From Eublepharis macularius (taxonomy: Eukaryota > Chordata > Lepidosauria > Squamata > Eublepharidae): a stretch of 64,000 bases of DNA. Positions 3,402 to 34,882 of this stretch are shown in pieces. The position numbers and the translations under genes are program-made. Under the pieces are notes generated by a model that ran no database searches, had not been told where the DNA came from, and was given only the letters and a program-made list of their open reading frames with translations. The stretch is taken from the NCBI RefSeq assembly GCF_028583425.1, contig NC_072792.1, positions 16,109,676 to 16,173,675 on the forward strand, given 5' to 3'. How positions within the stretch are numbered: position 1 is the stretch's first letter; every line of letters starts with the position of its first letter.

Positions 3402-3415
3402 ATCTCATCGTATTA

Positions 3416-3535
3416 GTTTCAATTAACAATAATCGCGCCTCGGATTAACCTCATTGGCAAAAATATGGAACACTTCACAAATTTGTGTGTCATCCTTGTG
3501 CAGGGGCGTTGCTAATCTTCTCTGTATCGTTCCAA
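3416..3535 (-). pseudogene. Chimeric U6-U4 snRNA retropseudogene
   Basis: On the minus strand, 3535-3459 (77 nt) matches U6 snRNA from about nt 31 to the terminal T-run without indels. It is followed at once by 3458-3416 (43 nt), which matches U4 snRNA from about nt 26 to 68, including the 5' stem-loop stretch GAGGCGCGATTATTG. The whole insert lies between perfect 14-bp repeats ATCTCATCGTATTA (3402-3415 and 3536-3549). Several U6 differences are CpG decay (GCGC to GCAC, TTCG to TTTG). Both snRNAs are truncated and no promoter or poly(A) is present, so it is not functional. Reverse transcription with template switching is inferred. Confidence 0.9.
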
Positions 3536-3689
3536 ATCTCATCGTATTACTAAAAAGGACATATATCATATTTAGATCAGATGGTCATACACACAATAAA
3601 GGAACAATTTTACCTAGCAGTACAGTTTATATTATAGCCACTGTTAATGCTTCCAGGATTTTCAGCTAAATCTGGAAGGGCCTTAGGAA

Positions 3690-17251: not shown

Positions 17252-17677
17252 TAGAGATGGGCACGAACTGAAATATGAACCAAAATTAAGCACGAACCAG
17301 GCCGGTTCATGGTTCGTGAACCAGCTGTTTGTCAGATCCCATTTCTGATGAACTGCCACGAACTTTAGGTTGGTTCGTTTGGTTCATTTTTTGGTTCATC
17401 ACTGCAGACAGCCTGGTGCCAATCAATCACTTTCCTAGGCAACAGGGGACGGAATTCCAGCAGACCTTCTGCTGACCCAGAAGTGAACTTCTGCTGGCCT
17501 GGAAGTGACCTTCTGCCGGCCCAGAAGTGATGATTTTCTGACCAGGATGTGATGTTTTCATGAACCAAACAAACCGGCTCACAAACCAGGGGCAGGTTGG
17601 TGAAAGTTCGCGGTTTGTAAAATTTGATGAATCACGAACCACATGGTTCTTTTTTCTGCAGTTCGTGCCCATCTCTA
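17252..17677. mobile_element. hAT MITE, GAACC family
   Basis: TAGAGATGGGCACGAAC termini on both sides. TSD imperfect (CTCAGAAC / CTCAGGAT, 6 of 8). The interior has the 'TTCTGCTGACCCAGAAGTGA' direct repeats common to the family. Confidence 0.9.
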
Positions 17678-20275: not shown

Positions 20276-21036
20276 AAATGGAAAGAGAGCCACACAAATA
20301 GCAACCTCTGAGAAATTAATAAAAGACAGTTACAATTTTAGAGCGAGGAGAAAAAAAGAGATTGATGTGATGGGCTGGGTGCTGAGAATTATAACCTCTG
20401 ATGTTACATTTAATAAAATATATATTTCAGTTTTGTTTATCTCTGTTCTGTTTAGAAACAGAGGAGTGAGAGAGGGAAAGGTGCTCTACCCTCGCTTCTC
20501 TATCAGTTTTTCTGCCCTAAGTCTTCCTGCCTCCGTTCTTCTATTCAAACTTGCAACTGCTCTTCATTAAAAAAAAAATGTTTACGTGTCTCCTTCATAG
20601 CAACTAGGGGTGTGCAAGGAAAAAACTTTCGGCTTTCTTGTTTCGGGATTACCCGAAACAAGATTCTCTACCGTTAAAGCCGAAAGCCGAAACAAGAATC
20701 TCTTTCGGGATTCGGGATTCGGGATTCTTTCGGCATTCTTTCGGCATTCTTTCGGGTTTTTTTTTTTGGGAAAATGCCTCCGTCTTCCAGGACGTCTGGA
20801 GGAGGCATTTTCCCACCGAATAAGCCCAAAATTGGTGGGGACCTTCCTCTAACCCTTCTCTAACAACCACCCAAGTTTCAGACAGATTGGACTTTGGGGG
20901 GCCATGTTATGGCCCCCCAAAGCAGGTCCCCCATCCTCCCATAAGAAAGCGAAGGAGCAGCATATTGTTAGCATGCTGCTGCTGATCTTTCTTCATTATT
21001 TCCTATGGGGAAAAAATGAAGAGGCAGGCTTCCTTT

Positions 21037-21520
21037 GCCAGGGGTGGCATTTTGCATGCAAAATGCCCCCCTACCCTCAGGGGCCCTTCTCCCACCCCTC
21101 CTCCCACCCCCCACCAAGGCTCAGCCTGCTCCCACTTGGGGGGGCCATTTCATGGCCTCCCCAAGTAGGTGCTCTAATCTCTACCACTGACAGCTGGGGG
21201 AGGCTTGTGTTGCCAGGGGTGGCATTTTGCATGCAAAATGCCCCCCAACCCTCTGGGGCCCTTCTCCCACCCCTCCTCCCACCCCCCACCAAGGCTCAGC
21301 CTGCTCCCACTTGGGGGGGGCATTTCATGGCCTCCCCAAGTAGGTGCTCTGCTCTCATCTCTACCACTGACAGCTGGGGGAGGCTTGTGTTGCCAGGGGT
21401 GGCATTTTGCATGCAAAATGCCCCCCAGCCCTCTGGGGCCCTTCTCCCACCCTTCCTCCCACCCCCCACCAAGGCTCAGACTGCTCCCACTTGGGGGGGC
21501 CATTTCATGGCCTCCCCAAG
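21037..21520. repeat. Internal tandem repeat, left arm (period 175-180 bp)
   Basis: Three units start at 21037, 21212 and 21392. Each opens GCCAGGGGTGGCATTTTGC and contains the perfect palindrome GCATTTTGCATGCAAAATGC. The mirrored array is in the right arm. Confidence 0.9.
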
Positions 21521-23149
21521 TAGGTCCTCTCAGCCCCTAAAGTCCACCCCTTACAGCCCCACACAAACCCAATTCCCCCCCAGCTGCCACACACAGACCC
21601 AAATCCCCACATTAGCCCCTCACAGACCCAAATCCACCCCCACCTGCCCTACACCCATAACCCCAGGAACAGGCTGGCAAAGGCCAGCCCTCTCCCTTTG
21701 TTCCCTATGCTGGGAACTTCTAAACTCTCTTTCCCTGGGCAATTCTGCACAGCCCAGGGGTGCCACAATGGTGGGCACACTTCTGAGTGCCAGCTGGTCC
21801 CTGTGAAAGAGCACCTGAACCACAGACACCCTCCCTCAAATTCCCCCACCACCTACAGAGATGGCTGGCCAGCCAGCCCCATTGTTCCCTATGATGGGAA
21901 CCAACTGCACAACAAAGAATAAAACAAGAACAACACAAAATAAAGTTTTAAAAAAATTATATTCTCCCTTCCAAAGTACAAGTAGGCAAAGCATTATGAC
22001 ACATTACACCAGCAGTCCCCCACACAGAAAAATTAAAACAAAACTCACTTAACATCAGAGAATCACAAATCATGATTCCTGTCAAAAACACTTTATTTCT
22101 TGAACAGCTTTAGGTTACACAGCAGGGGGGAACACCAAAGGGCATGGCAGCACTATCTTACACAAAAATAACACAACTCGCTTCACATTAAAGAATCACC
22201 CCAAAAAATTGCTGTCAAAAGCACTTTATTTCTGTAACTGCTTTAGGAAGGCACCACAGAGCAGGAAAGCAGTGTACTACACAAAAATAACACAACTCAC
22301 TTCACATCAGAGAATCACACAAACACAATTGCTGTCAAAAACGGTGAAGTGGGTTGTATTATTTTTTGCAGTACATTGCTATCATGCCCTGTTGTGCCCT
22401 CCTACTGTGTAACCTAAAGCTGTTCAAGAAATAAAGTTTTTTTGCCAGGAATTGTGTTTTTGTGATTCTCTGATGTTAAGTGAGTTGTGTTATTTTTGTG
22501 TAAGATAGTGCTGCCATGCCCTTTGGTGTTCCCCCCTGCTGTGTAACCTAAAGCTGTTCAAGAAATAAAGTGTTTTTAACAGGAATTGTGCTTTGTGATT
22601 CTCTGATGTGAAGTGAGTTTTGTTTTAATTTTTCTGTGTGGGGGACTGCTGGTGTAATGTGTCATAATGCTTTGCCTACTTGTACTTTGGAAGGGAGAAT
22701 ATAATTTTTTTAAAACTTTATTTTGTGTTGTTCTTGTTTTATTCTTTGTTGTGCAGTTGGTTCCCATCATAGGGAACAATGGGGCTGGCTGGCCAGCCAT
22801 CTCTGTAGGTGGTGGGGGAATTTGAGGGAGGGTGTCTGTGGTTCAGGTGCTCTTTCACAGGGACCAGCTGGCACTCAGAAGTGTGCCCACCATTGTGGCA
22901 CCCCTGGGCTGTGCAGAATTGCCTAGGGAAAGAGAGTTTAGAAGTTCCCAGCATAGGGAACAAAGGGAGAGGGCTGGCCTTTGCCAGCCTGTTCCTGGGG
23001 TTATGGGTGTGGGGCAGGTGGGGGTGGATTTGGGTCTGTGAGGGGCTAATGTGGGGATTTGGGTCTGTGTGTGGCAGCTGGGGGGGAATTGGGTTTGTGT
23101 GGGGCTGTAAGGGGTGGACTTTAGGGGCTGAGAGGACCTACTTGGGGAG

Positions 23150-23625
23150 GCCATGAAATGGCCCCCCCAAGTGGGAGCAGTCTGAGCCTTGGTGGGGGGT
23201 GGGAGGAAGGGTGGGAGAAGGGCCCCAGAGGGCTGGGGGGCATTTTGCATGCAAAATGCCACCCCTGGCAACACAAGCCTCCCCCAGCTGTCAGTGGTAG
23301 AGATGAGAGCAGAGCACCTACTTGGGGAGGCCATGAAATGCCCCCCCAAGTGGGAGCAGGCTGAGCCTTGGTGGGGGGTGGGAGGAGGGGTGGGAGAAGG
23401 GCCCCAGAGCATTGGGGGGCATTTTGCATGCAAAATGCCACCCCTGGCAACACAAGCCTCCCCCAGCTGTCAGTGGTAGAGATTAGAGCACCTACTTGGG
23501 GAGGCCATGAAATGGCCCCCCCAAGTGGGAGCAGGCTGAGCCTTGGTGGGGGGTGGGAGGAGGGGTGGGAGAAGGGCCCCTGAGGGTAGGGGGGCATTTT
23601 GCATGCAAAATGCCACCCCTGGCAA
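23150..23625. repeat. Internal tandem repeat, right arm (mirror of left)
   Basis: Three reverse-complement units matching the left-arm array. Small differences from the left arm exist, for example 'GAGCATTGGGGGGC' near 23406 in place of 'GAGGGTTGGGGGGC'. Confidence 0.9.
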
Positions 23626-24074
23626 AGGAAGCCTGCCTCTTCATTTTTTCCCCATAGGAAATAATGAAGAAAGATCAGCAGCAGCATGCTAACAATATGC
23701 TGCTCCTTCGCTTTCTTATGGGAGGATGGGGGGACCTGCTTTGGGGGGCCATAACATGGTCCCCCAAAGTCCAATCTGTCTGAAACTTGGGTGGTTGTTA
23801 GAGAAGGGTTAGAGGAAGGTCCCCACCAATTTTGGGCTTATTCGGTGGGAAAATGCCTCCTCCAGACGTCCTGGAAGACGGAGGCATTTTCCCATAGAAA
23901 AGCCGAAAGAAAGCCGAAAGAATCCCGAAACGTTTCGGCTTTTTTCTTTCGGCTACCCAAAACGTTTCGGCATTCCCCGAAACGTTTCGGCATTCCCCGA
24001 AAGAAGCCGAAACACTTTTGTTTCGGCATTCTTTCGGCATTCTGAATGCCGAAACGCACATCCCTAATAGCAAC

Positions 24075-34039: not shown

Positions 34040-34563
34040 TCTGTAATAATGCCCACCCTCTTTTAGCCGATTGGGATCAGGAGTGGACCAGGTGGCAATG
34101 CCCACACCCCCTTCTCCCAGCTGGTATCTGGAGCAGAGCAAGTAGTTAAGCCCGCCATCCACCTTCAACTGTCAGGATCAGGTGTGGAGCAGGAGGCAAT
34201 ACCTGTTCCTCCCTTCACCCAGCGTGGAGCAGGTGGCAATGCCCACCCCCCTTCACTCAGGTGGGATCAAGCTCGGAGCAGGCGGCAATGCCTTCCCCCT
34301 TCAACCAGCCATAGTCAGACACAGAACAGGAGGCAATGCCCCCCTCCTTTACCCAGGATGTATCAGGCATGGAGCAGGTAGAAAAGCCCTCCACCCCTTC
34401 ACATGGCCGAGATAAGGCAGATCAGGTGTGGAGCAGATGACAATGCCCACCCCCCTCCTTCATCAGCTAGAATCAGTGATGGAGGAGGAGCAAATGCCTG
34501 CCTGCCTGCCCTCCCCTTTCTAGAGCCCATTGTATTTTTTCCCACAATGGGCTTTGTTGCTAG
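34040..34563 (+). mobile_element. Helitron 3' end with internal ~50-bp minisatellite
   Basis: The right end has the stem GCCCATTGT / ACAATGGGC (34524-34552), then TTTGTTG and CTAG (34560-34563) followed by T. This is the hairpin-plus-CTRR terminus that defines Helitrons. Upstream are about ten degenerate units of roughly 50 bp around 'GGAGCAGGTGGCAATGCCC'. The 5' end is not identified. 'TCTGTAATAAT' occurs both at 34037 and just after the 3' end, which I cannot explain since Helitrons leave no TSD. Confidence 0.7.

Positions 34564-34761: not shown

Positions 34762-34882
<121 letters not shown>

Follow-up and report, generated by a model that had tools for sequence, protein, structure and literature searches.

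A U6–U4 small nuclear RNA retrocopy, probably made by LINE template switching, in the genome of Eublepharis macularius

Background

Chimeric retrocopies formed when a reverse transcriptase switches templates onto U6 small nuclear RNA (snRNA) were reportedly described by Buzdin in 2003 and by Garcia-Perez in 2007, and an alternative, RNA ligation route to the U6/LINE-1 chimeras is said to have been described by Moldovan in 2019. Template-switch chimeras of U6 are on record with L1, L2, RTE and SINE partners, including some from Anolis (PMC4476161). As presented in two of the relevant sources, the U6/LINE and U6/SINE chimeras consist of a 5' U6 in the sense orientation, with an intact 3' U-run, fused to the copy of another RNA, and a single target-site duplication (TSD) encloses the whole (PMC4476161; Law & Burns 2026, PMC13174262). 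The mammalian U6/L1 chimeras are described with full-length U6, whereas the platypus U6-L2 chimeras are mostly truncated (PMC4476161). U4 is listed among the snRNAs known to fuse to LINE-1 (Law and Burns, PMC13174262), and Table 1 of a survey of human copies has no entry for U4 under 'repeat' (0 of the 32 characterised copies; PMC4476161). A second class of relevant retrocopies comprises the internally primed, 3'-truncated (tailless) snRNA copies that are known for human snRNAs (PMC4476161) and are also reported in anole (PMC5322556). Finally, template jumps have been described in tripartite chimeric retrogenes, in which the LINE machinery joined unrelated RNAs within a 14-bp TSD (PMC2104539).

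Here we describe an insert in the genome of the squamate Eublepharis macularius, found in a 64,000-nt stretch of contig NC_072792.1 (hereafter, the window), in which a fragment of U6 is directly followed by a fragment of U4. As in the U6/LINE and U6/SINE chimeras, the 3' end of a sense U6 is joined to a second RNA-derived segment, with a single TSD around both parts, but the 3' partner in this case is U4 snRNA rather than a LINE, a SINE or an mRNA and, unlike in the mammalian U6/L1 chimeras, the U6 is 5'-truncated. The insert is therefore a variant of the LINE template-switch U6 chimeras, not a member of that class in the strict published sense. It shares with the tailless snRNA retropseudogenes internal priming in the A-rich stretch of U4, the lack of poly(A) and the presence of a TSD, but differs from them in that the copy of U4 breaks off at nt 26 and gives way to U6; the tripartite retrogene differs from it in containing a SINE part and a LINE part. 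Thus, the insert brings together, in a new manner, two retrotransposition routes that are already established: the copying mechanism is known, and it is the pairing of two snRNAs without retrotransposon sequence that is unusual. A full-text search of the open-licence literature (titles and the starts of abstracts) turned up, among the papers listed, no report of U6–U4 or other snRNA–snRNA retrocopies, which does not amount to establishing their absence in print.

Structure of the insert

The whole insertion, including both copies of the TSD, occupies positions 3402-3549 of the window on the minus strand (G000:C3:16113077-16113224) and, in its own sense, reads TAATACGATGAGAT – U6 nt 31-107 – U4 nt 26-69 – TAATACGATGAGAT. 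The upstream TSD copy (3536..3549, 5' in the insert sense) adjoins nt 31 of a 5'-truncated U6 whose 3' end is complete, with five T's (3459..3535; cmscan RF00026, 88.6 bits, E 2.6e-21). At the junction, ...CATATTTTT|GCCAATGAGG... (3458..3459), the sequence passes without a gap or a shared base into U4, the 3' end of which is truncated and tailless (3416..3458; cmscan RF00015, 40.3 bits, E 6.6e-8), and this is followed by the downstream TSD copy (3402..3415). The two parts, both in the sense orientation and bluntly joined, are thus enclosed by one common 14-bp direct repeat, ATCTCATCGTATTA at 3402-3415 and 3536-3549 (14/14 identical), and the sequence of the insert contains neither a second direct repeat nor an A-tail at the U6/U4 join.

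The cmscan match to U6 (3560-3459, minus strand) is stretched over the flank, U6 proper beginning at 3535. The match to U4 was obtained under an E-value threshold; because U4 is present as 43 nt only, its score is below the Rfam cut-off of 46 bits, and U4 is absent from the gathering-threshold listing. Aligned to human U4, the 43-nt part has a score of 38, compared to a maximum of 15.5 in 2000 shuffles, and the whole insert scores 41.5 against U4, compared to 16 or less for the rest of the window. The U4 match is therefore not a product of chance, an explanation that these two controls rule out. Among 4,466,000 comparisons across the whole window, 14-mers repeated at a spacing of 100-169 bp were found 51 times, that is, in the TSD pair, a repeat-rich stretch at 22159-22609, one 17-bp pair standing alone at 34089/34230 and an array of CTTT at 34762. 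Repeats of 14 bp at such a spacing are thus uncommon, but this is not the only one in the window; the telling point is that it abuts both ends of the snRNA insert. An earlier note on this DNA had described a gapless minus-strand junction of U6 (77 nt, from about nt 31) with U4 (43 nt, from about nt 26) and a perfect 14-bp TSD on both sides of the pair; both descriptions hold, and the U4-like part does align to U4 better than chance, the opposite of which the note had named as a refutation.

Elsewhere, the window contains a large inverted repeat (20760-23901), with three pairs of collinear arms (173, 407 and 886 nt) that are 98-99% complementary, about 1.4 kb per arm in total, and with 180-bp tandem units inside. 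A related 22-bp unit (CACTTCCGGGTCAGCAGAAGG-like, on either strand) forms short arrays that are dispersed at 17466, 25409, 27084, 36032 and 59186.

For comparison with the species' own genes, the best-scoring U4 (L009 on C13, 131 bits) was taken as the true U4 gene, and the best-scoring U6 copies, an array of ~1.2-kb units on C4, were taken as U6 genes; at least 16 gene-like U6 copies, mostly in ~1.2-kb units, lie at G000:C4:37377892-37409183. The U4 gene has GGTTAATCC at the place where human U4 has GGTTTATCC, so the U4 of the insert differs from L009 only by C58T and by the loss of one A in AAAA (42 of 44 columns identical, with one C>T and one A deleted). Because of the lost A, local alignment of the window U4 stops at nt 67; with a gap allowed, the end is at nt 69, and it could be at nt 70 given that one T is common to U4 and the target site. 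The U6 part is identical to the species' own gene in 70 of 76 positions and has, in addition, the fifth T. The six substitutions consist of four at CpG sites and an adjacent TG>AC pair, and the CpG decay is uneven, with four of the five CpGs lost in U6 and all three intact in U4 (0/3 lost).

The TTTTT tail of the insert contrasts with the TTTT followed by C that ends all 16 of the C4 array genes seen: 15 of the 15 read by script end in this manner, and the sixteenth of the array loci given, L072, has no match to the script motif but is listed with TTTTC in the separate listing of U6-end patterns. In human, the mature form of U6, derived from a transcript with four U's, reportedly terminates in UUUUU>p (PMC10415362), so that the five-T tail fits a mature U6 RNA template, although one T may also come from slippage or mutation. 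Because the copy lacks the 5' ends of both RNAs and the 3' end of U4, the insert appears to be a dead retrocopy, that is, a non-functional relic.

Probable priming site in U4

By local alignment, the 3' end of U4 lies at nt 66-79 in 17 of the 24 non-gene-like copies, the window copy included. In the first U4 set of 24 loci, removal of five gene-like full-length ones (L009-L012 and L025, the best alignment of which is L010 again) left 14 of 19 copies with ends at nt 66-79. The second set contributed five new copies out of 20, of which L103, L105 and L107 end within this range and two end elsewhere, namely, L109 and L104, a 20-nt match that may be due to chance. For some copies, the end is imprecise because it overlaps the direct repeat (by 6 nt in L013). 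The U4 part of the insert displays the recurrent internal 3' truncation (nt 69/70), the absence of poly(A) and a TSD, and five other U4 copies have script-found TSDs of 10-13 bp (L013, L015, L018, L019 and L026). With its U4 end in the nt 66-79 hotspot, the window copy is a U4 retropseudogene of the tailless class in which cDNA synthesis went on to U6. L013, L015 and the window copy (3416-3420) are each one A short in the AAAA beside the priming site, a loss that may reflect slippage as the cDNA was started.

Other small-RNA joins in the genome

A scan of 47 loci for U6 and U4, which did not extend to the U1 part of L107, detected at least two segments in L001, L114, L118, L051, L049 and L035. 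The joins among the loci looked at are few in number: one U6–U4, two U6–U6, one U6–5S-like and one U4–U1. In L051 (C5:38998422-38998544), a head-to-tail U6(56-107)–U6(1-71), the 3' end of U6, with five T's, is joined to the exact 5' end of the second U6. L118 (C5:57060560-57060870), a head-to-tail U6(64-107)–U6(48-77) with a T-run at the join, is enclosed by TCTTTTCAAGGTATTG, a 16-bp direct repeat by eye, 12 bp of which were found by script; this locus is complex, with a U6 end in the inverted orientation and additional copies of the flanks. In L107 (G000:C3:164202104 region), U4 nt 23-75 (30.2 bits, below its cut-off) abuts the 5' end of a near full-length U1 (140 bits); the only flanking repeat is a 7-mer that does not abut the insert, so there is no clear TSD. 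U6 is abutted by 5S rRNA-like sequence in L043 (C1:146679825 region; 27.1 bits, below the cut-off of 38, E 0.014), and L049 has the structure U6–AAAAAA–U6.

By script, L051, L043 and L049 lack a direct repeat of at least 6 bp in their flanks, and the joins that lack a TSD (these three and L107) are weaker cases than the window copy. L107, L051 and L118 resemble the window copy in that two small RNAs are joined in the sense orientation, with no LINE sequence identified, but they have other partners, and a flanking repeat is seen for L118 only. In L037, L085 and L123, U6 3' ends with long T-runs adjoin similar sequences that we take to be tRNA-SINE-like. An inverted U6 3' segment lies beside a sense U6 segment in L035, L114, L118 and L124 (in the latter, by eye only), an arrangement resembling the products of twin priming or fold-back.

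Origin of the insert

The insert is probably a dead retrocopy produced in one event, in which a LINE reverse transcriptase began inside U4 and switched to the 3' end of mature U6. Under this scenario, the LINE endonuclease would have nicked the target at TATT/A or TATTA/C on the primer strand, and the primer would have annealed to the centre of U4 (GAAAACU, nt 64-70), with the cDNA running from about nt 69/70 to nt 26. The enzyme would then have left U4 within the 5' stem-loop and moved to a mature U6 with five U's, starting at its free 3' end; copying would have stopped at U6 nt 31, and joining of the second strand would have duplicated the target. The CpG losses in U6 (four of five) would represent decay after insertion. 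That this was a single retrotransposition event, with a start on U4 followed by the 3' end of U6, as the earlier note also proposed, is well supported by the U4 end hotspot, the single TSD and the alignments. A template switch is further suggested by the single direct repeat that encloses both parts, with none seen between them, and by the preservation of U6 to its last base, with five T's. In addition, other joins in the genome (L051, L118, L107, L037, L085 and L123) conform to this pattern, and in L051 and L107 the copy of the downstream RNA reaches the 5' terminus of that RNA to within one nucleotide, as expected of a template jump. Against the switch, the U6/U4 join lacks shared bases that would mark a jump, the CpG decay differs between the two parts, and this is one event (n=1) for which ligation prior to copying would leave the same DNA.

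The nick sites (bottom strand) of 13 snRNA copies with TSDs of 10-18 bp have no common motif; in particular, an L1-like TTTT/AA consensus was not found over these 13 copies, one of which is similar (L018, CTTTTT/AT), so the nick sites do not point to a particular LINE. The nick in the window, TATT/A, is one change away from TTTT/A. A Tn-TA signature is reported for squamate Bov-B (PMC13295347), and the T-run upstream of the window TSD (TTTTTAG|TAATAC) seems, loosely, to resemble it.

The main rival to a template switch is ligation of the RNAs before copying, whereby RtcB or a tRNA ligase would have fused U6, through the 2',3'-cyclic phosphate of its UUUUU>p end, to a piece of U4 that starts at nt 26 and carries a 5'-OH, and a LINE would then have copied the product, with internal priming on U4. 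This is a published route for U6/LINE-1 chimeras (PMC13174262, PMC13247085), and the U6 copy runs to its very end, with exactly five T's, which corresponds to the human form that reportedly bears the cyclic phosphate (PMC10415362); we consider ligation a serious contender, if an unlikely one. It requires, however, a putative fragment of U4 beginning at nt 26. Furthermore, the other joins in this genome weakly favour switching over ligation: two of them are located at or within one base of RNA 5' ends (U6 G1 in L051, U1 in L107), and the 5' ends of U6 and U1 are capped, capped ends being poor ligase substrates, although the mechanisms behind these joins may differ.

Another candidate explanation, which appears improbable, is that the enzyme was copying U4 while it was paired with U6 and jumped to the U6 3' end of the same native U4/U6 di-snRNP. 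Co-folding of the species' U4 and U6 predicts that stem I (U4 56-63) and stem II (U4 3-16) flank the 5' stem-loop (20-52), with a third helix predicted at U4 73-79. The jump at U4 nt 26 would be inside the predicted 5' stem-loop, about 10 nt before stem II, and its position is compatible with a stall at that predicted stem. Yet, copying from nt 69 to nt 26 must unwind stem I first, only one such event is at hand (n=1), and U6–U6, U6–5S-like, U4–U1 and U6–SINE-like joins are present in the same genome. Joins between RNAs that are not partners imply that the proximity afforded by U4/U6 pairing is not required, and capture of the native duplex, which the earlier note had suggested, has nothing in its favour beyond compatibility and is not supported.

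Two independent insertions, an assembly error or a recombination between separate copies of U6 and U4 might be envisaged given the many separate U6 and U4 retrocopies in the genome, and L049 may be such a case. For the window copy, this is very improbable: the perfect 14-bp repeat encloses the pair, and separate insertions are disfavoured by a join that has neither an inner repeat nor an A-tail.

Copy number in the genome

A genome search with the whole insert gave 41 matches (the best 40 of 61 candidates were scored), with one full match, the window itself; the others are U6-only or U4-only. The junction pattern (exact, with a spacer of 0-12 nt) occurs at two places in the 2.24-Gb genome, the window and one on C10 (L034/L054). 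The latter was dismissed as a chance occurrence, with no U6 (alignment score 18) and only a 10-base U4 word. Two junction-crossing matches, C2:23493021 and C4:149191381, are plain U4 copies (L015 and L013, respectively), a weak resemblance between U6 and U4 explaining the alignment. Twenty copies of the U4 5' stem-loop were found (up to two mismatches; 0 in the reversed-pattern control), and U6 lies in the upstream 300 nt of just one of them, the window copy (upstream U6 score 122, compared to 24 or less for the other 19).

The U6-end pattern occurs at 181 places (70 for the reversed-pattern control), the first 100 of which were listed; the places examined, among the matches listed, were all 18 exact ones (six already-known loci and 12 new) and four with one mismatch, and cmscan found no U4 in the 16 new stretches. 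The family searches scored the best 48 of 236,259 candidates for U6 and the best 41 of 134,821 for U4, so that the resulting counts are lower bounds. In viral contigs, the junction was found 0 times, a result that is not informative for a large eukaryote genome.

The insert is single-copy as far as searched, in accord with the earlier expectation that no common repeat has this junction. Its membership in a dispersed U6–U4 SINE-like family has no supporting point and, with one full match, a junction pattern confined to the window and one chance place, and 19 of 20 stem-loop copies free of upstream U6, has a negligible probability; within the limits of the search, which found no dispersed copies sharing the junction, an ordinary SINE family can be ruled out for this genome.

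Implications

The window copy is a well-preserved member, with a clean TSD, of the small set of small-RNA joins in this genome. That both templates are snRNAs suggests that template joining needs neither LINE RNA nor poly(A). It is conceivable, albeit doubtful, that the templates of LINE reverse transcriptases in this genome are assembled spliceosomal particles and that the snRNA–snRNA joins (U6–U4, U6–U6 and U4–U1) comprise a LINE-free class of chimeras; were this the case, such joins would be a record of the small RNAs, U4/U6 included, that were in each other's company at the time of copying. If these joins were compiled genome-wide, the statistics of their breakpoints and partners could tell apart ligation, free switching and the capture of paired RNAs.
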